Source: Mariniphaga anaerophila (lineage in GTDB: Bacteria > Bacteroidota > Bacteroidia > Bacteroidales > Prolixibacteraceae). From it: a stretch of 64,000 bases of DNA. The stretch covers positions 135,555 through 199,554 of the forward strand of contig NZ_FQUM01000007.1 of NCBI RefSeq assembly GCF_900129025.1, in the 5' to 3' direction. The position numbers and the translations under genes are program-made. Below, piece after piece: positions 25,313-47,917 of this stretch; position 1 is the first letter of the stretch; every line of letters begins with the position of its first letter. The notes under the pieces are model-generated. The model had not been told where the DNA came from and did not search any database. It saw nothing but the letters and a program-made list of their open reading frames with translations.

Positions 25313-26104
25313 ATGAAAAAAGTTATTTCTTTCCTTTTTGCAGGTGCGCTTGTTTTTGGGATTTCGTGCACCGGTGGCCAAAAAAAATCTGCAGAGCAGA
25401 CTGAAGAAAAAGCAGCTGTTGTAGAAGAAGTTGGCCCGAATGAATTATCTAAAGAAGAAAAAGCAGCCGGTTGGTCATTGCTTTTTGACGGAACAACCAG
25501 CAACGGCTGGCGCGGTGTAAACAAAACAAATTTCCCGGGAGGATGGGAAGTTGTTGACGGAACATTGCATTGCAAAGGCTCCGGAATGGGCGAAGCCGGT
25601 TCTGATGATGGCGGCGACATTCTTTACGATAAAGAATTTTCTAATTTCCATTTGAAAATGGATTGGAAAATTGGCGAAGGCGGAAATTCGGGTATCTTTT
25701 ATCTCGGACAGGAAGTGGAAGACTGGCCAATCTGGAAAACTGCTCCTGAAATGCAGGTGCTCGACAACGAAAGGCATCCTGATGCCCTGCTGGGTAAAGA
25801 CGGAAACCGCAAAGCCGGTTCTCTTTACGATCTTATTCCGGCCAATCCACAGAATGCAAAACCTGCCGGAGAATGGAATTCCATCGAAATTTTGGTTTAC
25901 AAAGGAACTGTTGTTCACAAACAAAATGGCGAAACCGTTTTGGAATATCACCTGTGGACCGACGACTGGAATAACCTTGTAAAAGATTCTAAATTCCCCG
26001 AACTGAATCCCGACTGGGCAAATGTTGCAAAATCAGGATTCATTGCATTGCAGGATCATGGCGACGACGTTTGGTTCCGTAACATTAAAATTAGGGAACT
26101 GTAG
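25313..26104 (+). CDS. DUF1080 lipoprotein (3-keto-glycoside hydrolase-like)
   Basis: The protein has 263 residues, with signal peptide and lipobox GISC (Cys about 20), then a short charged linker. The rest is a DUF1080 concanavalin-like fold with the signature W-LFDGTT--GWRG near the start and GGWEVVDGTLHCKG, F.L.MDWKIGEGGNSGIFY, and GFIALQDHGDDVWFRNIKIREL at the end. Family members are often annotated as 3-keto-disaccharide hydrolases and occur with oxidoreductases of 3-keto-sugar pathways. No such partner is beside it; it is a single-gene unit with its own promoter and terminator. Confidence 0.92.
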   Translation: MKKVISFLFAGALVFGISCTGGQKKSAEQTEEKAAVVEEVGPNELSKEEKAAGWSLLFDGTTSNGWRGVNKTNFPGGWEVVDGTLHCKGSGMGEAGSDDGGDILYDKEFSNFHLKMDWKIGEGGNSGIFYLGQEVEDWPIWKTAPEMQVLDNERHPDALLGKDGNRKAGSLYDLIPANPQNAKPAGEWNSIEILVYKGTVVHKQNGETVLEYHLWTDDWNNLVKDSKFPELNPDWANVAKSGFIALQDHGDDVWFRNIKIREL

Positions 26105-32634: not shown

Positions 32635-33207
32635 ATGTCTGTTATAAAAGGGATTAAGGAAGAAACCCTGATACTGCGGCTTGTTAGCGGCGACCAGACT
32701 GCCTTTGAATTACTGTTTCGTTTTTATTATCCTGGCCTGGTGATATTCGCTTCTCGAATTGTTTTAGACAGAGATGAGGCGGAAGAAATTGTCCAGAATT
32801 TTTTTGTAAAACTGTGGTCTGACAGAAAAAGAATCAGAAAATCTGAAACCCTGAAAAGCTACTTTTTTGCGTGTGTGAAAAACCACGCATTGAATCATCT
32901 AAAAAGGGAGAAAATAAGCGAACGGGTTCGAAATGAACTTCGAAAAATGATTGAAACGGATCGGCTGTATCAGCCCGATGTTTTTGTAGAATCTGAATTG
33001 CAGCACCGCATAAAATCGGCTTTTGAAAAATTGCCGCCCCGCACCAACGAAATTTTTACATTAAGCCGGTTTAACGGGCTTTCTAATCAGCAAATAGCCG
33101 AACAACTTCAAATTTCCAAAAGAACCGTGGAAACTCAAATTTCCAATGCGTTGAAATTGCTGAGGGAGGAATTGAAAGACTTTATGTTTATTCTTATGTT
33201 GTTCTGA
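32635..33207 (+). CDS. ECF sigma factor of the sulfated-glycan locus
   Basis: The protein has 190 residues. Region 2 is visible in ALNELLFRFYYPGL-like positions (FELLFRFYYPGLVIFA, DEAEEIVQNFFVKLW) and region 4 in LPPRTNEIFTLSRFNGLSNQQIAEQLQISKRTVETQISNALK. This is the Bacteroidota FecI-like type. It is followed by FecR and a SusC with STN domain, the classic three-part trans-envelope circuit, and is expected to transcribe the locus when the anti-sigma factor releases it. Confidence 0.93.
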   Translation: MSVIKGIKEETLILRLVSGDQTAFELLFRFYYPGLVIFASRIVLDRDEAEEIVQNFFVKLWSDRKRIRKSETLKSYFFACVKNHALNHLKREKISERVRNELRKMIETDRLYQPDVFVESELQHRIKSAFEKLPPRTNEIFTLSRFNGLSNQQIAEQLQISKRTVETQISNALKLLREELKDFMFILMLF

Positions 33208-33322: not shown

Positions 33323-33345
33323 AAACCAACTGAAAATTGGTTTTT
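33323..33345 (+). other. Weak hairpin between sigma and anti-sigma genes
   Basis: AAACCAA/TTGGTTT, a 7-bp stem with 7-nt loop, is followed by two further T residues. It may partly terminate sigma-factor transcripts, but the stem is A/T-heavy. Confidence 0.3.
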
Positions 33346-33363
33346 GAAATAGCAAAATACCGA

Positions 33364-34383
33364 ATGAAAGAACAAAATCATAAAATGAACGCTGAATCTG
33401 AACTGGAAAAGTTTATTAAATCCAGGGCCGGATTGTCGTCTTTTGACAGGAAGCTGGAGGCAGCAAAGCTTATTAACCACACAAATTCTGTGGATGTTGA
33501 AACAGCCTGCAAAAAAGTAAGTAGTAAAATCAGCGGTACGAAAGCGTCCCGTTCGTTTTTTACTGCATTAACCCGGGTTGCGGCAATACTCACTTTGCCG
33601 TTGCTGGCTTTTGCCGTTTGGAGCCTGTTTTTTCAGGAAGAGCAATCGGAAGAGCCGGTTCTGTTGGTGCAGAACGAAATTACCTGGCAGGAAATTTACA
33701 GTCCGCTGGGGATGCGTTCGTTTGTGGTTTTACCCGACGGAACCAATCTTTGGTTAAACGCCGGCAGCCGGTTACGCTACGGAATTCCGTTTACCCGCGA
33801 ACGACGGGAGGTAGAGCTTTCCGGAGAAGCTTTTATTGACGTGAAAGAAAATGAGCAATCGCCTTTTGTTGTGAAAGCCCAAAATGCCGAAGTTGAGGTG
33901 TTAGGAACGCAGTTTAATGTGAATGCTTATTCGGATGCCGAGCAGATTCAGGTGGCGCTGAAAGAAGGAAAAGTGAAGTTTCTGTTCGACGGGGATTCGG
34001 GGGCGAAAAAATATTGTGAACTCAATCCAAACGACCTGTTGGCATTCAATAAAAAAAGCAAAACAGTAACCCGGGCAAACACCAATATTGAAAAGTACAT
34101 TGCCTGGCATCAGAACATAATGATACTTGACGATACGCCAATGACAGAAGTAGCCAGATTAATGGAACGGTGGTACGGCGTGAAGGTTATTATTAAAGAT
34201 GAGAGCATAAAAAAATACCGGTTTACAACCGTTTTCGATAACGAACCGCTTTTTAGGGTGCTGGAGCTGCTGGAGCTGAGTTCGCCCAAAATAAAAACAA
34301 CTTACATTCCCGGCAAACCGGATGACGAAACCAAAAAACTATCTCAATCAATAGTAACCATAACTAAAAATAAACGCTTATGA
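33364..34383 (+). CDS. FecR-type anti-sigma factor
   Basis: The protein has 339 residues from the ATG at 33364 (the open frame extends to a TTG at 33337; ATG at 33385 is an alternative). A cytoplasmic sigma-binding part of about 65 residues precedes one transmembrane helix (VAAILTLPLLAFAVWSLFF). The periplasmic FecR domain follows, with LPDGTNLWLNAGSRLRY, VELSGEAFIDV and VEVLGTQFNVNAY, then a DUF4974 domain (AWHQNIMILDDTPMTEVARLMERWYGV). It should sense the STN domain of the SusC downstream and control the sigma factor upstream. Confidence 0.93.
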   Translation: MKEQNHKMNAESELEKFIKSRAGLSSFDRKLEAAKLINHTNSVDVETACKKVSSKISGTKASRSFFTALTRVAAILTLPLLAFAVWSLFFQEEQSEEPVLLVQNEITWQEIYSPLGMRSFVVLPDGTNLWLNAGSRLRYGIPFTRERREVELSGEAFIDVKENEQSPFVVKAQNAEVEVLGTQFNVNAYSDAEQIQVALKEGKVKFLFDGDSGAKKYCELNPNDLLAFNKKSKTVTRANTNIEKYIAWHQNIMILDDTPMTEVARLMERWYGVKVIIKDESIKKYRFTTVFDNEPLFRVLELLELSSPKIKTTYIPGKPDDETKKLSQSIVTITKNKRL

Positions 34384-34511: not shown

Positions 34512-37500
34512 ATGAAAAAATTTTTAAACCTATTGTGTTTGCTGTTGAAGCAACACCGAAAAAAACTAGTTGTTATGCGCAATACAGTTTTGATACTACT
34601 ATTAAGCACCTTCCAGGTTTTTGCCGTTGGCACTTATGCGCAAACCAAAACAATCAGTCTGGCTATGCATGACGCAACCATCCGCGATGTATTGTTTGCC
34701 ATTCAAAATCAGAGTGAATTTTATTTTTTGTATAACAGTGAGTTAGTCGATGTAACAAAAAAGGTAGATATTTCAATTAAAGGAGAAAAGGTAGATGAAA
34801 TACTAACCCGATTGTTCGATAAAAGTAAAGTAGATTTTTTAATCAAGGATCGTTACATCGTACTAACTCCTGTTGGCGGAAATGTTGAACTGTTTGATCA
34901 GCCATCCCGAATAACAGGAAAAGTTACCGACTCGTTTGGGCAGCCGCTGCCCAGTGTAACGGTTGTTATTAAAGGCACGACCCAGGGAACGGTGACGACT
35001 TCGGATGGAGAATATATTCTGACAAATATTCCCGAAGATGCTACGCTGGTTTTTTCTTTTGTGGGAATGAAAACGCAGGAAATTCCTGTTGGCGGGCAAA
35101 CAAGCATTGATGTGGTTATGCAGGAAGAAGCCATCGGGCTCGAAGAGGTTGTTGCAATCGGATACGGAACGGTTAAAAAAAGCGATTTAACCGGTTCTGT
35201 TACAAAAGTATCCGGCGAGGAATTTAGCATGCAACCTTTAACTCAGATTACTGAAATGCTTGCCGGTACCGTTGCCGGGTTTAATTCCAGCCAGGGAACA
35301 AGTGCTTCTGGCGGAGGTAGCCTGGAGATTAGGGGGCCAACTTCGTTAAGTGCCGGAACCGATCCGTTGATTGTTCTCGATGGCGTTATTTATAACGGTA
35401 GCATCCGCGACATAAACCCGATGGACATTGAAAGCCTGGACATTCTGAAAGATGCCAGTTCTTCTGCCATTTTTGGAGCAAAAGCTGCATCGGGCGTTGT
35501 TATAATTACTACAACAAAGGGAAAAACCGGAAAGCCGACCATCAACTTTTCGACAAAAATGGGGCTTGCCGAAGTTACAAATAAAGATATGAGGCCGTTT
35601 AGTCCCAAAGGGTTTACCGATTTCAGACGGGACTTTTTAGGCAGGTTGTATCCCGATTTACCTCAATACTATTTTTACAGCCCGGATGAATTACCGGGGA
35701 ACATTAGTGTAAGCGACTGGTCGAATTACAGTGACAATCCTAACTCCAATAACTATGTTGAGTGGTTGTCGAGGTTGCAACTTACCAACCCGGAAATTGA
35801 GAATTACCTTAATGGCAGAACTGTGGATTGGTACGATCAGGTGATGCAAAAGGGATTCCGCCAAAGTTACGATGTGAGTATTAACGGCGGAGGCGAAAGC
35901 CTTTCGTATTACTGGTCATTGGGATACACCGATAACGAGGGAATTATTGTTGGCGACAAATATTCTGCATTAAGGTCGAGACTCAATGTCTCTGCTAAAA
36001 TTTCTGATTTCCTTTCTGTTGGAACAAATACACAGTTTGCATTTAGGGACGAAAGCGATATACAGGCGCAGTTGAGGAACATGTTTAATAATACGCCGTA
36101 TGCTACGATGTACAACGAGGATGGAACGCTGAAATGGTTTCCGAACGATCAGCAGCAAAATGCACAAAACCCGCTTTTAAATACCTATTATCAAGATAAG
36201 CAGAAGAATATTTACAGCCTGGTTTCATCGCTTTACGCCGATATTATTTTGCCTCTTGGCTTTAGTTACCGTATTGTTTATCAGCCCAGAATGGGTTTTA
36301 CTAAAAACTATAATTTTTGGTCAACTTCCACAATTGTGGGCGCTATTGACCACTCGGGCGGGTACGGTACCCGGGAGGACAGCCAGTTTTACGAATGGCA
36401 GGTCGACAATATTCTGAAATGGAATAAGGATGTTGGAATTCATTCTTTTGATTTTACGTTTTTATACAATGCCGAAAAATACCAAAGCTGGTATTCTTTT
36501 CAGTCTGCCGAAGAATTCAGCCCCAACGAAAAGCTGTCGTTTCACTCGTTGCAATCAGGTGCCAAACTAACAATCGACAACAACGATACTTATTCAACGG
36601 GAGATGCAGTAATGGGAAGGTTGAACTATACATTGATGGATAAATACTTGCTGACAGCTTCTGTTCGACAGGACGGATATTCTGCTTTTGGATTGGAAAA
36701 CAAAAGGGCAATATTTCCTGCATTGGCGCTGGCCTGGCAGGCTTCCAGAGAAAATTTCTGGAACAACGACTGGCTGGTGAACCGGCTAAAAATGCGATTG
36801 TCGTGGGGTGTAAACGGAAACCGCGATATTGGGGTGTATTCAGCACTGGCAAAACTGTCTCAGAATTTTTATTACAATGGTTCGCAGGTGCAGATTGGTG
36901 TGTACAACTCATCGCTTGCAAATGCGCAGTTGTCGTGGGAAAAAACAGAGGCATATAATCTGGGGGTTGATGTGGGGTTATTCGATAACCGGATAGATAT
37001 AACCGCCGACGCTTACGTTTCTACCACCAAAGATTTGTTAATGCTGAGAAATCTTCCAAAAATAACAGGCTTTTCCGATATCTATTCAAACCTGGGAGAG
37101 TTGAAAAATAAAGGGCTGGAGTTTTCTGTGAATTCCGTAAATATTACGAATAGCAGAATAAAGTGGAATTCAAGTCTTGTTTTTTCACTGAACCGCAATG
37201 AAATAGTTGAACTGTTTGGAGACGTGGGAGAATATACGTTAGAAAATGAAGTCCGTTACGGAGAACTTCCTGACTTTACCAACCGATGGTTCCCGGGGCA
37301 GGCAATTGACAGAATTTGGGACTACGATATTACCGGTGTTTGGCAGCTCGATCAGGCAGATGAAGCAGCTAAGTACAATCAGTCTCCGGGCGATTACATT
37401 GCAGTAGATGTGAACGAAGACGGTATTTATACTGAAAGTAATGACAAACGCTTTGTTGGTTGGAAGCAGCCGCGCTACAGGATAGGGCTTCGAAATGAAG

Positions 37501-37919
37501 TCAGTTTTCTGAAACATTTTACTGCTTCTGCTTTTCTTCGGGCAGAATTGGGGCACATCGGGAGCATTGCCATATTTAAAGGAACCAGCAGTTCTTACGA
37601 AAGAACGAGTACCCGGGAATTTCCGTACTGGACTCCTGATAATCCTTCCAATAAATACGGTGCTGTTGTTTCGTACAGCGGCTTATACAGCGGCGGTTTT
37701 AACACCTACTTCCCGCGGTCTTATCTGAGGGTTCAGGATTTATCAATTTCCTACAACGTTCCTAAAAAAGTAATTGAACACTTAAATTTTGAAAGAGTAC
37801 GTGTGTATGGTAACGTGCGGAACTTGCTCACTTTTGACGGGTGGATGGACTGGGATCCTGAATCAGGTTCTTCGCCTATGCCAAGAGTATTTACACTGGG
37901 ATTTGATCTGTCATTTTGA
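34512..37919 (+). CDS. SusC/RagA-type TonB-linked outer membrane transporter with STN domain
   Basis: The protein has 1135 residues. The long N-terminal signal is of the MRNTVLILLLSTFQVFAVGTYAQ type. It is followed by an STN (secretin/TonB N-terminal) signalling domain about 46-118, a carboxypeptidase-like domain about 130-210 (ITGKVTDSFGQPLPSVTVVIKG), the plug with IGYGTVKKSDLTGSV and IEIRGPTSL-like LEIRGPTSL, DPLIVLDGVIY, then a 22-strand barrel to the final LGFDLSF. It imports oligosaccharides captured with SusD, and its STN domain contacts the FecR protein for regulation. The SusD gene starts 21 bp downstream. Confidence 0.97.
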   Translation: MKKFLNLLCLLLKQHRKKLVVMRNTVLILLLSTFQVFAVGTYAQTKTISLAMHDATIRDVLFAIQNQSEFYFLYNSELVDVTKKVDISIKGEKVDEILTRLFDKSKVDFLIKDRYIVLTPVGGNVELFDQPSRITGKVTDSFGQPLPSVTVVIKGTTQGTVTTSDGEYILTNIPEDATLVFSFVGMKTQEIPVGGQTSIDVVMQEEAIGLEEVVAIGYGTVKKSDLTGSVTKVSGEEFSMQPLTQITEMLAGTVAGFNSSQGTSASGGGSLEIRGPTSLSAGTDPLIVLDGVIYNGSIRDINPMDIESLDILKDASSSAIFGAKAASGVVIITTTKGKTGKPTINFSTKMGLAEVTNKDMRPFSPKGFTDFRRDFLGRLYPDLPQYYFYSPDELPGNISVSDWSNYSDNPNSNNYVEWLSRLQLTNPEIENYLNGRTVDWYDQVMQKGFRQSYDVSINGGGESLSYYWSLGYTDNEGIIVGDKYSALRSRLNVSAKISDFLSVGTNTQFAFRDESDIQAQLRNMFNNTPYATMYNEDGTLKWFPNDQQQNAQNPLLNTYYQDKQKNIYSLVSSLYADIILPLGFSYRIVYQPRMGFTKNYNFWSTSTIVGAIDHSGGYGTREDSQFYEWQVDNILKWNKDVGIHSFDFTFLYNAEKYQSWYSFQSAEEFSPNEKLSFHSLQSGAKLTIDNNDTYSTGDAVMGRLNYTLMDKYLLTASVRQDGYSAFGLENKRAIFPALALAWQASRENFWNNDWLVNRLKMRLSWGVNGNRDIGVYSALAKLSQNFYYNGSQVQIGVYNSSLANAQLSWEKTEAYNLGVDVGLFDNRIDITADAYVSTTKDLLMLRNLPKITGFSDIYSNLGELKNKGLEFSVNSVNITNSRIKWNSSLVFSLNRNEIVELFGDVGEYTLENEVRYGELPDFTNRWFPGQAIDRIWDYDITGVWQLDQADEAAKYNQSPGDYIAVDVNEDGIYTESNDKRFVGWKQPRYRIGLRNEVSFLKHFTASAFLRAELGHIGSIAIFKGTSSSYERTSTREFPYWTPDNPSNKYGAVVSYSGLYSGGFNTYFPRSYLRVQDLSISYNVPKKVIEHLNFERVRVYGNVRNLLTFDGWMDWDPESGSSPMPRVFTLGFDLSF

Positions 37920-37940: not shown

Positions 37941-39731
37941 ATGAAAATCATAAAAAACTATTTATTAGTACTAATAATATTGGTGACTGCATCATGTTCT
38001 GAAGATTACCTGGAGACAAAACCACTCTCTTTTTATGCTCCGGAAAACGTGTACACCAATGCCGAGGGATTCAATTCATTGTTGATTACAATGAAAAAAG
38101 ATTTTGCAATTGTTGGGTACGATCAGTTTTGTATCATGGCCGACCAAAATGCATATTCAGATTTGTGTGTTCCTGCTTCGTACAATAACCTTACAATAAG
38201 GGATTTGGTGAATAGTTTGACTCCTGCTGTAACCACCGGAGACACGCGGTTTCAGTTTCATAATCGGTTATTCGATCAGGCATACTATGCTGTTAGAAAT
38301 CCCAATGTGCTAATATCGAGGATTGACGATGTGGAGTGGAAAAATGAACAGGAAAAGAATTTTTTCCTGGCCTCGGCTTATTTCTACAGGGCTTATTGGT
38401 ACTACTTTTTAATTAACACTTACGGAGATGTGCCGTTTATAGGAGAGGAACTTACAGGACCAAAACTCGACTTTTATACGCATTCCCGCTGGACTATTTT
38501 GAATAAAATACAAGCGGACATGGAGTTTGCAGTGCAGTGGCTTCCTGTAAATGCCAACCCGGGGGAAATAACAAGGGGGGCTGCCAACCATCTGTTAACA
38601 AAAATTTATTTGGCCAACACTGAGTTTGACAAGGCAATTGCATCTGCAACAGCGGTTATCGACGGGCCCTACGCATTGATGAGGGATCGGTTTGGTTCGT
38701 ATAAAAACGATTTGGGGCGTAACGTGTTTTGGGATTTACATCGGGTTGAAAACATTAATGCACCTGAGAATACGGAAACAATATGTAGTTTGATTGACCG
38801 GTTTGAAGCACCGGAAAATGCCCAGAATGTTGGAATACAATCAGGTGTGTATAGAGGCAATACGCTGCCGCGTACGTACAACTGCCAGTGGTGGCATGCC
38901 ACTACGCTCGACAGCCAAGGGAAGAACGGAACAATTGGCAGTGGCGCTCAGTATGATACGCTTTTTAGAGGTGCTGCAACAGCCCGCCCGTCTGTTTATT
39001 ATCTGTATGAAATATGGGATCATGAGCGTGACTTAAGAAGAGCCGATCTCAATTGGGTAGACCCACATGAGATTATGTACAATCGTACTACCTCGGTTGA
39101 CTACGGAAAGCCGCTGAATCCTAATTATTTTGCCAGTGTAATAGATTCTTTTTCCAACATATACGCGATTCCTCACTATAAAACTTTTATACCCGAGCAA
39201 AATCCGCCGGGAGATGCATTCGGTGGCTCCGGCGATACCTACATTTTTCGGTTGGCGGGAACATATTTGTTGCGCGCCGAAGCCTATTTCTGGAAGGGAC
39301 AACTGGATTTAGCCGCTGCCGACCTGAATATGGTTAGGCAAAGGGCCGGTACTTTGCCAATTAGCGGCAGCCAGGTGACTATTGATGAAATATTCGACGA
39401 ACGTGCGCGGGAGCTTTTCACTGAAGAACCACGCTTTGCGGAGTTGACAAGAGTATCGTTTATAATGGCCAAACAAAACATTGGTGGTTATAGTCTGAAT
39501 AATTTTCATCAGAGTAATTATTTCTATGACAGGTCGATAAGTACGAACGTATTTTGGCGGACAAATTTCCAGGCGCGTTTTTCCGGAGAGCCGTTTCGAA
39601 TCGCTCCGTACAATGTGCTCTGGCCAATTCCTGAAACAGTTATCACAGCAAATACAAAAGGGGTAATTAATCAAAATGTCGGTTATTCAGGAACCGAAAA
39701 CAACGTGCCCCCTCTTGAAGTAATTGAATAA
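37941..39731 (+). CDS. SusD/RagB-type glycan-binding lipoprotein
   Basis: The protein has 596 residues; signal peptide with lipobox TASC (Cys 19) and the family start SEDYLETKPL. Tetratricopeptide-type helices are seen around FFLASAYFYRAYWYYFLINTYGDVPFI, and LRAEAYFWKGQLDLAAADLNMVRQRAG in the C half, ending with LWPIPE. It forms the hinged lid on the SusC transporter and binds glycan at the cell surface. The next gene is about 260 bp away behind a duplicated leader. Confidence 0.96.
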   Translation: MKIIKNYLLVLIILVTASCSEDYLETKPLSFYAPENVYTNAEGFNSLLITMKKDFAIVGYDQFCIMADQNAYSDLCVPASYNNLTIRDLVNSLTPAVTTGDTRFQFHNRLFDQAYYAVRNPNVLISRIDDVEWKNEQEKNFFLASAYFYRAYWYYFLINTYGDVPFIGEELTGPKLDFYTHSRWTILNKIQADMEFAVQWLPVNANPGEITRGAANHLLTKIYLANTEFDKAIASATAVIDGPYALMRDRFGSYKNDLGRNVFWDLHRVENINAPENTETICSLIDRFEAPENAQNVGIQSGVYRGNTLPRTYNCQWWHATTLDSQGKNGTIGSGAQYDTLFRGAATARPSVYYLYEIWDHERDLRRADLNWVDPHEIMYNRTTSVDYGKPLNPNYFASVIDSFSNIYAIPHYKTFIPEQNPPGDAFGGSGDTYIFRLAGTYLLRAEAYFWKGQLDLAAADLNMVRQRAGTLPISGSQVTIDEIFDERARELFTEEPRFAELTRVSFIMAKQNIGGYSLNNFHQSNYFYDRSISTNVFWRTNFQARFSGEPFRIAPYNVLWPIPETVITANTKGVINQNVGYSGTENNVPPLEVIE

Positions 39732-39877: not shown

Positions 39878-39998
39878 TGAAACGAATATGAATTTTCTTC
39901 ATTCAAAATCCACAAAATGAAATGATTAAAATTTGTGTGAGTTGCTGAGTGTCTTTGGTTATTTTGAACATTCAGAAATTAAAAATTTTATACAGATG
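39878..39998 (+). repeat. Duplicated leader, copy 1
   Basis: The 120 bp before the first propeller gene align almost without gaps to 42815-42937. Conserved blocks include ATGAATTTTCTTCATT, GAACATTCAGAAAT and CAGATGAAA at the start codon. ATGAA-ttttc-TTCAT inside it is a small inverted repeat. Duplication with the gene is direct observation; a regulatory role is inferred. Confidence 0.8.
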
Positions 39999-41324
39999 AA
40001 AAGAAGAGATTTTTTAAGGACGTCTGCCGGTTTTGTTGCCGTTGCTGCTGCCCCGGGTGTCTTTTTGGTTCAGTGCAAGTCAAGCCCTGCAGTAAAAATA
40101 AAATTCAGAGATTATCAAAAAGATACCAGTCTTGGTAAAGTGAAAATAGTAACTCCCGACGACGGGTTTTATCTCAATACCTTTTATGATATTTGCCCGT
40201 TTAGTCCAAGCCAGAAACTCCTTGCTGTAAATAAGTTGCCTTACCAGGGAAAAACGGCGGAATATGGAGACTTGTGCGATATCTGCATTGTTGATCTGGA
40301 GAACGAAACAATCGAAACGGTTTATTCTACAAAAGGGTGGGGGTACCAGTTGGGAGCCAACCTGAACTGGGGAATAACTGATCGCTATTTATATACCAAC
40401 GACATAATTGACAACGATGCGGTTTGTGTTCGGATAGATTTGGACACCAAAGAAGTAAAGGCATTTGCCGGGCCAATGTATCATATTGCACCCGACGAAA
40501 GCGCCGTTGCCGGATTTCCGCTGGATTTGATTAATGGCTATCAGGACGGAGAGTCTGCGCAAATGGGATACGGAGTGCCAATTTACAAGCTGTTGGAAGA
40601 GCTAAAGGGAGCGCCGTCGACAGAGGGGCTGTGGAGAACCGATTTGAAAACAAATGAGAAAACGCTTTTGGTGAGTTTGAAAGCGGCTTACGAAGCAATT
40701 GATAATCCGTATTATGCCGATGCCAATTGTTATTTTTTCCATACAAAATACAATAAGCAGGGCACGCGAATGTTGCAGGTGTTCAGAGGGGTGTTCCCGG
40801 GCTCATCGCGGTATCATCCTACACTGCTGACTTTTAATCCCGACGGGTCGGATATCGGGGTGGCTGTAACTCAGCAACAGTGGGCAAGAAGGGGAAATCA
40901 TCCCAATTGGCATCCCGACGGGAAACGCATTGTGATGAACCTGACACCAACCTGGCTGGGTGAGGAGCAAATGCGGTTTTGCATTTTTGACTATTCGGGA
41001 GACAATTTTAAACTGCTGTCTAAAAAACACTTTGGAAGTGGGCATCCTAGTGTTACGCCCGATACATCATACCTCATTTCTGATTATTACGTAGGCGAAT
41101 ACAAAAAACTGGGGTACGATGGTTCTCCAATTCGGTTAATTGACCTTAATACCGATGAGGAGCAGGCAATCTGCACTGTTTTTACCGACCTCGATATTGA
41201 TGCCAGTACATTCAGGGTTGATCCGCATCCTGCATGGAGTCGCGACTACAAAAAGGTGTGCTTCAATGGTGCGCCAAACGGCATAAGGCAGGTGTTTGTG
41301 GCAGATCTGGAAGGTGTAATTTAA
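39996..41324 (+). CDS. Tat-exported TolB/PL22-like beta-propeller protein, copy 1
   Basis: The protein has 442 residues from the ATG at 39996, which begins a twin-arginine signal (KRRDFLRTSAGFVAVAAAPG); the frame extends upstream to 39933 but that part is within the duplicated leader. A Cys follows the signal (VQC), perhaps a lipid anchor, absent in copy 2. The body has propeller-blade phrases GNHPNWHPDGKRIVMN, GSGHPSVTPDTSYLISDYY and DPHPAWSRDYKKVCFNGAPNG, as in TolB and oligogalacturonate lyases. A lyase on unsaturated or uronic oligosaccharides is possible; catalytic residues were not established. It lies between SusD and a sulfatase. Confidence 0.82.
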   Translation: MKRRDFLRTSAGFVAVAAAPGVFLVQCKSSPAVKIKFRDYQKDTSLGKVKIVTPDDGFYLNTFYDICPFSPSQKLLAVNKLPYQGKTAEYGDLCDICIVDLENETIETVYSTKGWGYQLGANLNWGITDRYLYTNDIIDNDAVCVRIDLDTKEVKAFAGPMYHIAPDESAVAGFPLDLINGYQDGESAQMGYGVPIYKLLEELKGAPSTEGLWRTDLKTNEKTLLVSLKAAYEAIDNPYYADANCYFFHTKYNKQGTRMLQVFRGVFPGSSRYHPTLLTFNPDGSDIGVAVTQQQWARRGNHPNWHPDGKRIVMNLTPTWLGEEQMRFCIFDYSGDNFKLLSKKHFGSGHPSVTPDTSYLISDYYVGEYKKLGYDGSPIRLIDLNTDEEQAICTVFTDLDIDASTFRVDPHPAWSRDYKKVCFNGAPNGIRQVFVADLEGVI

Positions 41325-41404
41325 TAGTTTCGGGGGTTGCACTTTGAGGCTGCCCCCGTTTTTAAGAGTTAGTCGTAGTGTTCAATTGGTTCAATACATT
41401 TGTT

Positions 41405-42802
41405 ATGAAATATTGTGCGCTTATATTTTTCTTCCTTTTTATTGTTCGTATCCAGGCACAGGACCAACCTAATGTTGTGCTGATTCTTGCAGATGATTTA
41501 GGTTATGGCGATGTTGGCTGTTACGGAAGCAGGGATATAAAAACACCAAATATCGACCGGCTGGCAACCGAAGGCGTGCGGTTTTCAAATTTTTACTCTA
41601 ACGGTCCGGAGTGCTCACCAACCCGGGCTGCATTGTTGTCGGGGCTTTATCAGCAACGAATTGGCGGGTTGGAATGTGCAATAGGAGCGGGCAATATCGG
41701 GCGGTACGACGAAGCTGCCTGGTTGGTCGATAAGAAGGAACTCGGGCTTCCCCGCGAATATTGTGTGCTTCCGCGCGAGTTGAAAAAGGCCGGGTACAAT
41801 ACAGCAATAATTGGCAAGTGGCACCTTGGATACGAAGAAAAGTTCAGGCCGCATAATCAGTTTTTTGACTATTCATTCGGGACTTTCGGAATAGGCGGCG
41901 AATATTTCTATCATGTTGAGCGAGGCCCCATAAATCTGGATGATTCGACATTTACCGGAATTCATACGCTGATGAAAAACGGGAAAGAAACTTTTCGGGA
42001 CGGGTATTACAGTACGCACTTATTTACCGATGAAGCGCGTGCGTGGCTCAATCAGCAAAACAACAAAACACCGTTTTTTCTGTATCTTCCGTATACCGCA
42101 CCACATACTCCTTTTCAGGGACCAAACGATTTTTCTGAAAAACCTTTTACAAACGAGGAATGGGGAACAAGAAACAAGAGCCGGAAGACCTACGCTGAAA
42201 TGGTTGAGGAGATGGATAAAGGCATAGGTCAGGTTCTTGACGTGCTTGAAAGAAAAGGACTGGCAAAAAACACCATCGTTATTTTTTTTAGCGACAATGG
42301 CGGAACAAAAATGTCTGACAACGGTGTTTTTAGCGGATATAAAGGGCAGGTTTACGAAGGAGGAATTCGCGTACCGTGTATCATCAAATGGCCAAGTATG
42401 ATTCCGGAAAACTCAGCGTCGGATCAGGCTTCAATCAGTTTTGATTTAACGTTGTCGATCATAGCCCGGGCGGGCGCTGACATTTCTTCTCTGGATCTGG
42501 ATGGTTATGATATTTTATCTCATGTGATTGACTACAAAACTGATTTTGACCGGACTCTTTTTTGGAGAAAAAAGCGGGAAGAGTCGGTGGTAAAAGCGGT
42601 TCGCGACGGAAGCATGAAACTGGTTGTTGAGTATGAAAGTGATGTGCTGAAAAATAAAAAATTGTACAATTTAAAAACGGATCCCTGTGAATCGGCTGAC
42701 TTGGCAGAAGCAAATCCGCAAATGGCGAAAAAGCTGTTTGAAAAACTGTCCGGATGGGAAAAAGAGGTTCAGTCAGAACGATTATCGGAGATGAAAAAAT
42801 AG
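41405..42802 (+). CDS. Exported sulfatase, type I (first)
   Basis: The protein has 465 residues from the ATG at 41405, which opens a signal peptide ending IQAQ. The formylglycine motif is C70-S-P-T-R, with metal ligands in LADDLGYGDVG and FFSDNGG, plus GKWHLG and APHTPF. It should remove sulfate esters from sugar in the periplasm after maturation of C70 to formylglycine. The position within the SusC/D locus points to a sulfated glycan. Copy 2 of the duplicated leader begins 12 bp after its stop. Confidence 0.94.
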   Translation: MKYCALIFFFLFIVRIQAQDQPNVVLILADDLGYGDVGCYGSRDIKTPNIDRLATEGVRFSNFYSNGPECSPTRAALLSGLYQQRIGGLECAIGAGNIGRYDEAAWLVDKKELGLPREYCVLPRELKKAGYNTAIIGKWHLGYEEKFRPHNQFFDYSFGTFGIGGEYFYHVERGPINLDDSTFTGIHTLMKNGKETFRDGYYSTHLFTDEARAWLNQQNNKTPFFLYLPYTAPHTPFQGPNDFSEKPFTNEEWGTRNKSRKTYAEMVEEMDKGIGQVLDVLERKGLAKNTIVIFFSDNGGTKMSDNGVFSGYKGQVYEGGIRVPCIIKWPSMIPENSASDQASISFDLTLSIIARAGADISSLDLDGYDILSHVIDYKTDFDRTLFWRKKREESVVKAVRDGSMKLVVEYESDVLKNKKLYNLKTDPCESADLAEANPQMAKKLFEKLSGWEKEVQSERLSEMKK

Positions 42803-42814
42803 TTAGTGAAATAG

Positions 42815-42937
42815 TGAAACGAACATGAATTTTCTTCATTTAAAATTCACAAAAAGAAATGGTTGAAATTTATGTGAGTTCCTGAATGTCTTCAAATTTT
42901 TAGAACATTCAGAAATCAAAAAAAATTAATGCAGATG
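42815..42937 (+). repeat. Duplicated leader, copy 2
   Basis: This is the counterpart of 39878-39998, starting just after the first sulfatase stop and running to the start codon of the second propeller gene. Many mismatches are scattered singly, as after an older duplication kept in register. Confidence 0.8.
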
Positions 42938-44281: not shown

Positions 44282-45670
44282 ATGTTTGGGAAAACGATTT
44301 TGGTTTTTTTGTTAATCGGTTTGATGTGCGAGCCGGTTTTTGCTGCCGACAAAAAGGAGCAGTTGCCTAATATTCTGGTGTTTGTTGCAGACGACTGTAC
44401 ATACAGAGATTTGGGGTGTTACGGAAGCACCGACTCAAAAACGCCGACAATAGATAGTTTTGCAAAAGAGGGAGTGCTGTTTACAAAGTGTTTTCAGGCT
44501 GTGGCCATGTGTTCACCTACCCGCAGTAATTTGTACACCGGAATTTACCCTGTTAAAAGCGGTGCATATCCAAACCATACTTTTGTAAAAGAAGGGGTGA
44601 AAAGCATTGTACAGCATCTGGCTCCGCAAGGTTACCGAACGGCTTTGCTTGGGAAAAAACATGTAAATCCGCCTTCTGCTTTTCCTTTTGAGTTTTTGGG
44701 CGATCCGGGCGATGAGCTGGATTTTGATCCAATGGATAATTTTTTGAATGAGGCAGGCGCAAACGAAAATCCTTTTTGCCTTTTTGTCTGTTCTCATCAA
44801 CCTCATACTCCGTATAATCAGGGAGACCCTTCGTTGTTTAGTGCCGGTGAAATTCAGCTTCCTCCTTATTTTGTAGATACTGAGGTAACGCGCGATGAAT
44901 TTGTAAAATACCTGGCAGAAGTCAATTACATGGATTCAGAGTTTCGGACTTGCCTGGACTTGCTCGACAAATACAAGCTTTCTGAAAATACATTGGTAAT
45001 ATTTACCAGCGAGCAGGGAAACAGTTTTCCTTTTGCAAAGTGGACTTGCTATGGCAGCGGTTTGCAATCTGCTTTTGTGGCAAGGTGGCCCGGAAAAATC
45101 AAAGCCGGTGCAGAAACCGATGCTATGATTGAGTATGTAGATGTTGTTCCTACTTTAATTGAAGTGTCTGGTCAGCACGTTCCCGGTTTTCTGGATGGAA
45201 AAAGTTTTCTTCCTGTACTCACCGGCGAAAAGGATTCGCACAAAGAATATGTTTTTGGTATTCAGACAACCAGAGGCATTAAATTAGGCTCTGATTATTA
45301 TGGAATCAGAACCATTCGCTCTGAACGTTTTCGTTATGTCTTAAACCTGACGCCGGAAGCAACTTTTCAGAATAACGTAATAGCTGATGACAATAAGAAC
45401 AGAGTTTTCAAATCGTGGTTAACCAAAGGAGCGGTTGATGCCGGCGCCAGGGAATTGGCGTATAAATATCAGCATCGCCCGGCTGAAGAACTGTATTTGC
45501 TGGATGTAGATCCTTTCGAAATGAATAATGTTGCTGATGATGAAAAATATGCGGATGTGAAGAAGGACTTGCGCGAAAGACTTTTACACTGGATGGAGGA
45601 GCAGGGCGACAAAGGTCAGCAAACAGAGCTGGAGGCTCCGGATCACCAGTGGCGAAATTACAGAGAATAA
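44282..45670 (+). CDS. Exported sulfatase, type I (second; sulfamidase-like)
   Basis: The protein has 462 residues; signal peptide ending VFAA. The formylglycine motif is C77-S-P-T-R, with metal site FVADDCTYRDLG and the second site SEQGNSFPFAKW, and GKKHV in place of GKWHLG. The pattern SEQG...KW...GLQSAFVARWPG is closer to heparan N-sulfatase/sulfamidase-type members than to the first sulfatase. Substrate assignment remains a guess. The stop is 33 bp before the next gene. Confidence 0.92.
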   Translation: MFGKTILVFLLIGLMCEPVFAADKKEQLPNILVFVADDCTYRDLGCYGSTDSKTPTIDSFAKEGVLFTKCFQAVAMCSPTRSNLYTGIYPVKSGAYPNHTFVKEGVKSIVQHLAPQGYRTALLGKKHVNPPSAFPFEFLGDPGDELDFDPMDNFLNEAGANENPFCLFVCSHQPHTPYNQGDPSLFSAGEIQLPPYFVDTEVTRDEFVKYLAEVNYMDSEFRTCLDLLDKYKLSENTLVIFTSEQGNSFPFAKWTCYGSGLQSAFVARWPGKIKAGAETDAMIEYVDVVPTLIEVSGQHVPGFLDGKSFLPVLTGEKDSHKEYVFGIQTTRGIKLGSDYYGIRTIRSERFRYVLNLTPEATFQNNVIADDNKNRVFKSWLTKGAVDAGARELAYKYQHRPAEELYLLDVDPFEMNNVADDEKYADVKKDLRERLLHWMEEQGDKGQQTELEAPDHQWRNYRE

Positions 45671-45703: not shown

Positions 45704-47917
45704 ATGAAGACAATAATCAGACTTTTTGGATGCGGACTAATTCTGGCAATTTTTTCCATGTTTTCCAACGAAAGCACTGCCCGCGAAAAACCGGGTAATC
45801 CCAATATAATAATTATATATGCCGATGATTTGGGGTATGGCGATTTGAGTACCTACGGGGGGACAATCCCAAGCCCGGGCATTCAGCGTATTGCTGACGC
45901 CGGTATTATGTTCACCGATTTTTACGTCAGTGCTCCGGTATGTACTCCTTCGCGGTATGGATTGCTTACAAGTCGATATCCACAGCGGTCGCTGCATAAC
46001 TTAACCGGCGCTTTAATGCCCGGAGATGAGGGCCACATTGACAAGACAACAAAAATACTTCCGCAGTATCTTAAAGATTTTGGCTATTCCACCGCACTTT
46101 TTGGTAAGTGGCATCTGGGAAACAGCAAACCGGAGTATTTGCCGTGTTATTACGGGTTTGATAAATTTGTGGGACACACGCACGGCTGTATCGACTTTTT
46201 TACTCATGTTTATGGAAGCTTGGGGCACGACTGGTATGAGGATTGCCAACCGTTGTACGAAGGAGGGTATGCCACCGATTTGATAACAAAACATGCCATA
46301 GATTACCTTTCGTCATTGGACGGGCAGTCTCCGTATTTTGTTTACATGTCGTATAACGCACCACATTACGGAAAATCCGATCCTGCAAATTTGCCGGCAA
46401 ACACAGTTGTGCTTCAGGAGGGCGAGCGGCAGGGGGTGAACTACGCAAATACTCTTCAGGCGCCGGAGAATTATATTGAGCGTTTTGCCGGCGTTGAAGA
46501 TATTTATCGCAGGTATTACTCCGCAATGGTTTCCAATCTGGATGACAACATTGCAAAGCTGCTGGACTACCTGGAGAAATCGAACCAGCTCGATAATACA
46601 ATCGTGTGGTTTATTTCTGATAACGGCGGTTATTCCGAAACGAATTTCAAACATGCCAGCAACGGTGTGCTGAAAGGGCAGAAAGCCAGCTTAAACGAAG
46701 GGGGCATCAGAATTCCTTCGGCGCTTTGCTGGGGGAAGAACATTAAACCGGGGCAGGTTATTTCTCAGCCGGCTGCTAATATCGATGTTTTGCCCACTTT
46801 TCTGGAACTCATAAAACCGGAACGTGCGGAGAAGGTGAATCTTGCCGATGGCGTTTCGTTGGTTCCGTTAATTCTCGGGAATAAATCAATTGACCGGGAT
46901 TTGTTTTGGAAATATCGTGGAAACAAGGCTTACCGGCAAGGAGACTGGAAATTGCTCGACGATAAGTTATTCAATCTTTCCGACGATATTTCAGAGGAAA
47001 ATGATTTATCAAAAGTCAGGCCCGACATCTACAAAGAGTTGAATGAAAAGTGGGAGAAAAAGGAAAAAGAGATTGAACAAACCAGGCAGAAAACGCAGGA
47101 GAAAGTGACTTGTGCAGAAGGAAAAAATAAACAGTTGTTTCCTGAAATGCCCGGAATGGTTTCTTACACCTATCGAAACAGTTTTAGCAAAAGCATCGCA
47201 TTAACGCTTGACACTTTGCAGGAACTGGGAATTAAAGACATGGAATTTTCCAACCTGTTTGGCGAAACAGCACTGGCTATCAGAAAGATGCTCGACGAGC
47301 GGGGAATGTTTTGTTCGTCTTTTGGAGTAAGTTACAACGACCTCGTTACCAAAACCGAAGAGGTCGGGAATAACGCAAAAGCTCTGGGCGCCAAATATGT
47401 GAGAGTGGCGTCAATCCCGCATAACCAGCCTTTTACCCTGGAGTTGGCTCAAAAAGCTGTGGAGGATTTTAACAAGACAGGTAAATTATTGAAGGAAAAG
47501 TTTGGCCTTACTTTTTGCTACCACAATCATGGGTTTGAGTTTTATCCGTACAACGGAGGTACTCTTTTTGATTACATGGTTGAGCAAACCAACCCCGATT
47601 ATGTGAGTTTCGAAATAGATATTTTATGGACTTTTTTGCCGGGGCAGGATCCTGCTGCGCTTATTAATAAGTATGGCGACAGGTTTAAGCTTATGCACCT
47701 GAAAGACCTGAAAAAAGGAGTAGAACGCGGATCGTTATCAGGGAAGACAGATAAAGAAAATGACGTGGCACTTGGTTCCGGGCAGTTAGACATCCCTGCA
47801 ATTTTAAAAGCTGCAAAAAAAGCCGGAATCAAGCATTATTACATAGAAGATGAAAGTTCTTCGTACAGTAAGCAGGTGCCGGAAACCATCAGGTATTTGA
47901 ATAGCTTGAAATACTGA
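45704..47917 (+). CDS. Exported fusion: sulfatase plus sugar-isomerase-type TIM barrel
   Basis: The protein has 737 residues with a signal peptide (about 1-27). Residues about 33-445 are a type I sulfatase: YADDLGYGDLSTYG, formylglycine motif C80-T-P-S-R, GKWHLG, FISDNGG. A charged linker about 445-480 rich in Lys/Glu/Gln leads to residues 482-737, a xylose-isomerase/AP-endonuclease-2-like barrel with YHNHGFEF, FEIDILW, LMHLKDLKKG and YYIEDE, the metal-site strands of that family. The frame is uninterrupted. Sulfate removal and a following isomerase, epimerase or lyase step could be coupled in the periplasm. It is the last gene of the locus. Confidence 0.9.
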   Translation: MKTIIRLFGCGLILAIFSMFSNESTAREKPGNPNIIIIYADDLGYGDLSTYGGTIPSPGIQRIADAGIMFTDFYVSAPVCTPSRYGLLTSRYPQRSLHNLTGALMPGDEGHIDKTTKILPQYLKDFGYSTALFGKWHLGNSKPEYLPCYYGFDKFVGHTHGCIDFFTHVYGSLGHDWYEDCQPLYEGGYATDLITKHAIDYLSSLDGQSPYFVYMSYNAPHYGKSDPANLPANTVVLQEGERQGVNYANTLQAPENYIERFAGVEDIYRRYYSAMVSNLDDNIAKLLDYLEKSNQLDNTIVWFISDNGGYSETNFKHASNGVLKGQKASLNEGGIRIPSALCWGKNIKPGQVISQPAANIDVLPTFLELIKPERAEKVNLADGVSLVPLILGNKSIDRDLFWKYRGNKAYRQGDWKLLDDKLFNLSDDISEENDLSKVRPDIYKELNEKWEKKEKEIEQTRQKTQEKVTCAEGKNKQLFPEMPGMVSYTYRNSFSKSIALTLDTLQELGIKDMEFSNLFGETALAIRKMLDERGMFCSSFGVSYNDLVTKTEEVGNNAKALGAKYVRVASIPHNQPFTLELAQKAVEDFNKTGKLLKEKFGLTFCYHNHGFEFYPYNGGTLFDYMVEQTNPDYVSFEIDILWTFLPGQDPAALINKYGDRFKLMHLKDLKKGVERGSLSGKTDKENDVALGSGQLDIPAILKAAKKAGIKHYYIEDESSSYSKQVPETIRYLNSLKY

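Follow-up and report, generated by a model that had tools for sequence, protein, structure and literature searches.

The breakdown of glycosides by a 3-keto elimination route has been described for two kinds of substrate, levoglucosan and phenolic glucosides of plants (excerpts of PMC7676230 and PMC10628242). On levoglucosan the route comprises oxidation, elimination, hydration, and reduction, and in B. smithii the eliminase LgdB1 is indifferent to added Mn while the hydratase LgdB2 is helped by it (PMC7676230, excerpts); a lyase can therefore not be recognized from its metal site alone. The Agrobacterium O-glycoside beta-eliminase AtOGE (8bvk), an unfused protein of 259 residues whose studied substrates are 3-keto-glucosides, that of phloretin among them, coordinates its metal through His132, Asp163, His189, and, weakly, Glu233, uses His134 as its catalytic residue, and loses 90% or more of its activity when EDTA is added (PMC10628242, excerpts). 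DUF1080 has been tied to the hydrolysis of 3-ketotrehalose, with hydrolysis of 3'-ketolactose put forward as a proposal (PMC9007349, excerpts). The 3-keto-beta-glucopyranoside-1,2-lyases BT1 (8tct) and AL1 (8tcd and 8tcr) have been solved as chains of 270 to 289 residues. The gut enzymes are reportedly the subject of a 2024 paper in Nature. Sulfatases of family S1 carry the formylglycine motif C/S-x-P-x-R, and solved carrageenan sulfatases (6prm, 6bia, 6b0k, and 9hh3) have chains of 451 to 480 residues without a barrel. A barrel of the same fold joined to a second enzyme has been solved in 5hmq, where the partner is a different one, 4-hydroxyphenylpyruvate dioxygenase, and the barrel is more distant from the one described here (16 to 17% identity).

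The window, which is the whole 64-kb stretch of Mariniphaga anaerophila DNA that was analyzed, encodes both kinds of domain in a single gene, with the following features.

45704..47917, + strand: fusion gene for a 737-residue protein, an S1-type sulfatase plus a xylose-isomerase-like TIM barrel (ORF and Pfam)
45704..45787, + strand: signal-peptide-like N-terminus, about residues 1 to 28 (read by eye)
45800..46813, + strand: sulfatase domain PF00884, residues 33 to 370, the sulfatase half ending at about residue 459 (Pfam and alignment with a free sulfatase)
45941..45955, + strand: CTPSR, of the form C-x-P-S-R, taken as the formylglycine motif, with C80 (sequence motif)
47081..47125, + strand: linker, residues 460 to 474, where free barrels carry a signal peptide (alignment and model)
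47126..47914, + strand: barrel domain, corresponding to the whole mature free protein, with the Pfam match at residues 503 to 733 (Pfam, alignment, and model)
47522..47530, + strand: HNH, residues 607 to 609, with predicted metal ligand H607 and predicted catalytic base H609 (H132 and H134 of AtOGE; alignment)
47618..47620, + strand: predicted metal ligand D639 (D163 of AtOGE; alignment)
47696..47698, + strand: predicted metal ligand H665 (H189 of AtOGE; alignment)
47846..47848, + strand: predicted metal ligand E715 (E233 of AtOGE, weakly coordinating there; alignment)

The frame runs on the + strand from an ATG at 45704 to a stop codon at 47915 to 47917, with 737 codons and no internal stops. 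Matches to PF00884 (residues 33 to 370, profile positions 1 to 299 of 301, E = 3e-53, 181.5 bits against a cutoff of 25) and to AP_endonuc_2, PF01261 (residues 503 to 733, profile positions 2 to 247 of 249, E = 1e-14), each span nearly the full profile. The fusion is one intact frame with two whole domains, as the first-pass annotation had read it. Export, which had also been claimed, is apparent in the signal-like N-terminus as read by eye, and the protein is probably exported. Both halves represent known enzyme kinds, and their pairing is an architecture that was found nowhere else among the matches listed for the genomes searched.

The fusion gene closes a cluster of SusCD type, and the cluster is a SusCD-type polysaccharide utilization cluster. 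The genes upstream of it are as follows.

32635..33207, + strand: ECF sigma factor
33337..34383, + strand: FecR-type anti-sigma protein
34512..37919, + strand: SusC-type TonB-dependent receptor
37941..39731, + strand: SusD-family protein
39933..41324, + strand: protein without a family above the cutoff, its N-terminus TAT-like and its TolB/PD40 propeller matches weak
41378..42802, + strand: sulfatase, PF00884
42929..44260, + strand: paralogue of the 39933 protein, 71% identical, no family over the cutoff
44282..45670, + strand: sulfatase, PF00884, ending 33 bp before the fusion gene

The paralogues at 39933 and 42929 are possibly an undescribed kind of propeller enzyme, perhaps a lyase; relatives of them lie near sulfatases at two other loci, L172 (with GH88 and GH2) and L034. 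No ORF in the 64-kb window matched a Gfo/Idh/MocA query at an E value of ≤1e-5, and neither a Gfo/Idh/MocA nor a DUF1080 gene was found beside the fusion. For a lyase of the 3-keto-glycoside kind, such neighbors would be supporting evidence more than a defining trait. The sole DUF1080 ORF of the window, at 25313, had been offered as partner evidence. It lies about 20 kb away, outside the cluster, and is one of 29 matches to PF06439 over the cutoff in the 5.05-Mb genome (a few frames hold two), from which about 0.37 would be expected per 64 kb, and it was dropped as a clue. The 5-Mb genome also holds many sulfatase matches.

An assembly or sequencing artefact could also produce a frame of this kind, and the fusion comes from one assembly of 45 contigs. 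The gene lies at 181 to 183 kb of the 267-kb contig C16, that is, in mid-contig, with no ambiguous bases (N) in the window, and is the only full-length match to the fusion in its own genome (G000, 5.05 Mb). In GC and GC3 both halves are similar to six neighboring genes, with the GC3 of the sulfatase half (49.6) slightly over the neighbors' range (40.6 to 48.2). The fused copy lacks only the barrel's signal peptide, and no remnant of a signal peptide, stop codon, or spacer is left at the junction, across which the frame is kept; in a chance chimera, one domain's end and the start of the mature barrel would have had to meet in frame. The first-pass annotation had raised the case of orthologues that are always two genes, with a sequencing error here. 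Its first part holds in that the nearest 80 barrels kept, of 368 found, are all separate genes; its second part does not, since such an error would not delete both the stop codon and the signal peptide and leave the frame intact. An assembly error was dropped as an explanation on these grounds, and an artefact of either kind is considered highly improbable.

Residues 25 to 459 of the sulfatase half align with residues 27 to 459, the last residue, of a free 459-residue sulfatase in the relative G019 (45% identity), and include C80-T-P-S-R84, which we take to be the formylglycine motif. The carrageenan sulfatases named above are the solved proteins closest to it in sequence (E values of 1e-59 to 4e-52), and the S1-19-labelled chains 9hh3 and 9hh2 are among the nearest. 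Apart from the protein itself, only G019 gave a match at an E value of ≤1e-90 among 140 genomes of the family; none was found at 1e-85 outside its own genome among 247 genomes of the phylum, and 393 genomes of the order yielded three free sulfatases at 38 to 40% identity, one with an internal TGA. The N-terminal half, with its domain and motif complete, is a formylglycine-type S1 sulfatase and is predicted to remove sulfate esters. The anSME maturase model TIGR03942 had no match above its cutoff in the genome, the best being weak (43.7 against 349 bits; L217, G000:C33:283-1197) despite the many sulfatases. The whole-chain model is poor over the sulfatase half (mean pLDDT of 57) and was dropped as a source for the domain arrangement; in it, linker residues 460 to 474 fall inside a modeled helix spanning residues 440 to 475.

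Free proteins of up to 76% identity align with the barrel half along its length. These belong to a large family of about 283 residues with signal-like N-termini, of which 368 were found in the species-genome collection and the best 80 (66 to 76% identical) were kept. All 80 kept loci have open barrel frames of 263 to 386 residues, and in all except L067 (79/80) the conserved part is preceded by a hydrophobic stretch. Two 139-residue frames elsewhere in the genome, at G000:C45:20790-21056 and G000:C21:109-375, gave partial barrel matches of equal score; the latter is near a contig end, and the pair is perhaps a repeat that broke the assembly.

With the barrel model (pLDDT of 96.1) as the query, Foldseek placed the uncharacterized structure 3obe at the top (1e-15), followed by the lyase BT1 (8tct; 2e-15) and the uncharacterized 3l23, with AL1 (8tcd; 6e-15) and AtOGE (8bvk; 8.5e-14) further down and the hydratase AtHYD (8ro4) below the lyases, at rank 18 (2.6e-10). 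BT1 and AL1 structures together matched at 2e-15 to 2e-14, and BT1 is also detectably similar in sequence (2e-22). Identity to the solved lyases in the fold alignments is only 22 to 25% (24 to 25% for BT1 and AL1 and 22 to 23% for AtOGE), and those lyases are chains of their own, whereas the barrel here is the C-terminal half of a sulfatase. H607, D639, H665, and E715 align with the AtOGE ligands and H609 with its base, so that each AtOGE residue has a counterpart, and all five are invariant in 15 of 15 alignment rows. The metal-site residues of the barrel are present, with the ligands, whose absence had been named as grounds for rejection, intact. The best NCBIfam match was the myo-inosose-2 dehydratase IolE (TIGR04379; 45.4 bits against a cutoff of 290), and IolI, IolE, and epimerase structures likewise matched the model in Foldseek. 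Compared with five free relatives, the barrel has pN/pS values of 0.18 to 0.22 at near-saturated synonymous sites, which speaks for constraint on the barrel, without dating it relative to the fusion. Assignment of the barrel to the 3-keto-glycoside lyase/hydratase kind is supported; within that kind, lyase and hydratase have a common fold and metal site and are not separable by sequence here.

The gene neighborhoods of free barrels bear on the same assignment. Of the 80 loci, 67 were 12.7 kb or longer and were compared with 40 control stretches (2 of them holding N), drawn from four genomes of the phylum to which the window belongs. DUF1080 (7/67 versus 0/40; Fisher test, P = 0.033) and Gfo/Idh/MocA genes (21/67 versus 4/40; P = 0.009) were more frequent near free barrels, as were sulfatases (6/67 versus 0/40; P = 0.055), with P values uncorrected for relatedness or for the number of tests. 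In crude ORF calls at 76 loci (L030, L071, L076, and L094 having no barrel call), the same-strand ORF just upstream of the barrel was Gfo/Idh/MocA at nine, DUF1080 at two (L027 and L032), and a sulfatase at two (L034, with a gap of 46 bp including the stop codon, and L018, with a gap of 582 bp). By phmmer, the sulfatases of L034 and L018 resemble the 41378 sulfatase of the window more than the fused one, so these loci are analogous pairs, not the fusion's orthologue in split form; L034 also encodes a protein related to that at 42929 in the window. In G661, a distantly homologous cluster has a relative of the 42929 protein (44% identity) together with GH88, GH2, a Gfo/Idh/MocA protein, and four sulfatases (three recognized by Pfam and one by phmmer), and no barrel in the 19 kb read. 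This gene content fits the order of desulfation and oxidation proposed below. G1120 duplicates L034 and G458 duplicates L027, and counts from the two sources were not summed. For seven Gfo/Idh/MocA proteins, six beside barrels and the one in G661, the best NCBIfam match was the glycoside 3-dehydrogenase BT_2158_fam, at 128 to 290 bits; the cutoff is 750, so they are relatives, not members, of that family. Fold ranking, ligands, and the context of free relatives thus agree with the first-pass placement of the barrel among 3-keto-glycoside lyases and hydratases otherwise known as free enzymes.

When the same domain pair was sought in other genomes, a sulfatase-barrel fusion was seen in its own genome only, among the matches listed. 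No second such frame appeared among the matches listed for overlapping samples of 60, 395, 140, 393, 195, and 150 genomes, which were queried with the barrel or the whole protein. Two candidates were scored per genome in the 393-genome search, six in the 395- and 247-genome searches, and up to 11 to 17 in the 140-, 195-, and 150-genome searches. An 805-residue frame in G360:C38 was not counted as a further fusion, as its stretch is full of long overlapping frames. None of the 196 stretches that fit a pattern in a viral-contig scan encoded a relative, and among 887 plasmid records that gave a match, none covered 80% of the query at a single place. Titles and abstract openings, mostly outside subscription journals, gave no sulfatase fused to such a barrel.

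Barrels of this kind are joined to other domains elsewhere. Three proteins combine the same barrel subfamily with DUF1080 in one chain, one with DUF1080 first (L146:739-2280, +; G1097) and two with the barrel first (L148:1429-2961, +; G1051; and L149:1417-2943, +; G973). They are likely bifunctional 3-keto-glycoside enzymes, and they resemble the window's protein in pairing the barrel with a second enzyme domain but differ in that the partner is a 3-keto-disaccharide hydrolase domain and not a sulfatase, and in occurring in both domain orders. The same subfamily is also fused to a polysaccharide deacetylase, PF01522 (L132:3981-5570, +). More divergent barrels are joined to FG-GAP repeats in two genomes of different families (L128:1501-3516, −, and L156:3631-5634, −); in both, HNH reads HPH, and the PF01261 score of L128 (26.3) is under the cutoff of 31.1. 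In a tree of 51 rows, the window barrel groups with 15 free barrels in a 16-row clade (support of 100/98), and the free and fused states change five times or more among the 51 rows. Of six loci skipped by a motif search, L146 and L156 were entered in this tree by hand and L106, L110, L113, and L147 were left out, as was the long-branched outgroup L161; the two FG-GAP rows come together as long branches. Given the DUF1080 fusions in both orders, the deacetylase and FG-GAP fusions, and the context enrichment, the barrel appears to be a module that is fused again and again in 3-keto-glycoside breakdown, and the sulfatase would be one more of its partners.

The fusion is read here as a bifunctional sulfatase and 3-keto-glycoside lyase, probably exported, whose gene stands last in a SusCD-type cluster, a reading given about even confidence. 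The N-terminal S1 sulfatase would remove a sulfate ester from a glycan fragment, both activity and substrate being predicted, and a separate enzyme would then oxidize C3 of the sugar. With the 3-keto group bound by the metal, H609 would act as the base and take the C2 proton, and elimination would break the glycosidic bond at C1, on the same or a neighboring sugar. Desulfation may free a hydroxyl or a conformation needed by the 3-dehydrogenase. The first-pass annotation had proposed that the sugar, once desulfated, undergoes a second step. Its placement of the barrel is supported and this two-step idea only in part, because a 3-keto lyase requires prior oxidation of C3; by Pfam, neither half contains an oxidoreductase domain, and the window gave no Gfo/Idh/MocA match. 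With C3 oxidation in between, the two halves would act in one pathway, though probably not in successive chemical steps. The gene itself may have arisen when a sulfatase gene and a barrel gene were joined and the signal peptide of the latter was lost, as one of the five or more changes between free and fused barrels.

Other functions for the barrel were weighed against the same evidence. It might be the hydratase of the pathway, acting on a 2-hydroxy-3-keto-glucal like AtHYD or LgdB2. These two are also annotated as sugar phosphate isomerases (PMC7676230 and PMC10628242, excerpts), LgdB2 is the one helped by Mn, and LgdB2 can partly replace LgdB1 (PMC7676230, excerpts), so the activities are close; the DUF1080-barrel fusions, too, could split elimination and hydration between their halves. 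Against this, AtHYD matched the model at 2.6e-10 and the lyases at 2e-15 to 8.5e-14, the size of the barrel (an estimated 29 kDa) is that of AtOGE (30 kDa) more than that of AtHYD (41 kDa) (PMC10628242, excerpts), and, in the comparison with AtOGE, the HNH ligand and base pair is present. These comparisons leave a hydratase as a rather unlikely candidate. An isomerase, epimerase, or inosose dehydratase acting on another sugar or a cyclitol, unrelated to 3-keto-glycosides, would account for the best NCBIfam match to IolE (45 bits) and the matches of IolI, IolE, and epimerase structures, but the IolE cutoff is 290 bits, the lyase structures match the model better, and the signal-like N-termini of free relatives (a hydrophobic stretch in 79/80) and their association with DUF1080 and Gfo/Idh/MocA genes are ill suited to cytoplasmic inositol catabolism. 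Such a function is judged improbable.

The fusion could also be without meaning for a pathway, two neighboring exported proteins having been joined by a deletion that left one signal peptide in common. Its occurrence in one genome only would suit this, and partners as different as a deacetylase and FG-GAP repeats suggest an exported module that is prone to fusion. Several of the partners nevertheless act on glycans or suit the pathway (DUF1080, deacetylase, and sulfatase), and unfused sulfatase-barrel pairs are adjacent at two other loci. We rate an accidental joining as improbable to the same degree as a function on another sugar.

Read as a sulfatase joined to a 3-keto-glycoside lyase, the protein gives a testable hint that sulfated polysaccharides may enter the 3-keto elimination route. 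The repeated fusions of the barrel, to DUF1080 in both orders, deacetylase, FG-GAP repeats, and sulfatase, provide a list of bifunctional proteins whose partners point at substrates. A broader and more tentative proposal, which we consider possible but doubtful, is that Bacteroidota break sulfated glycans via the 3-keto route outside the cell or in the periplasm, fusing editing domains for desulfation or deacetylation to one exported lyase module, of which the protein described here would be the sulfatase version. Barrels of this kind may break glycosidic bonds by elimination, not hydrolysis, and sulfated glycans may feed into that reaction.
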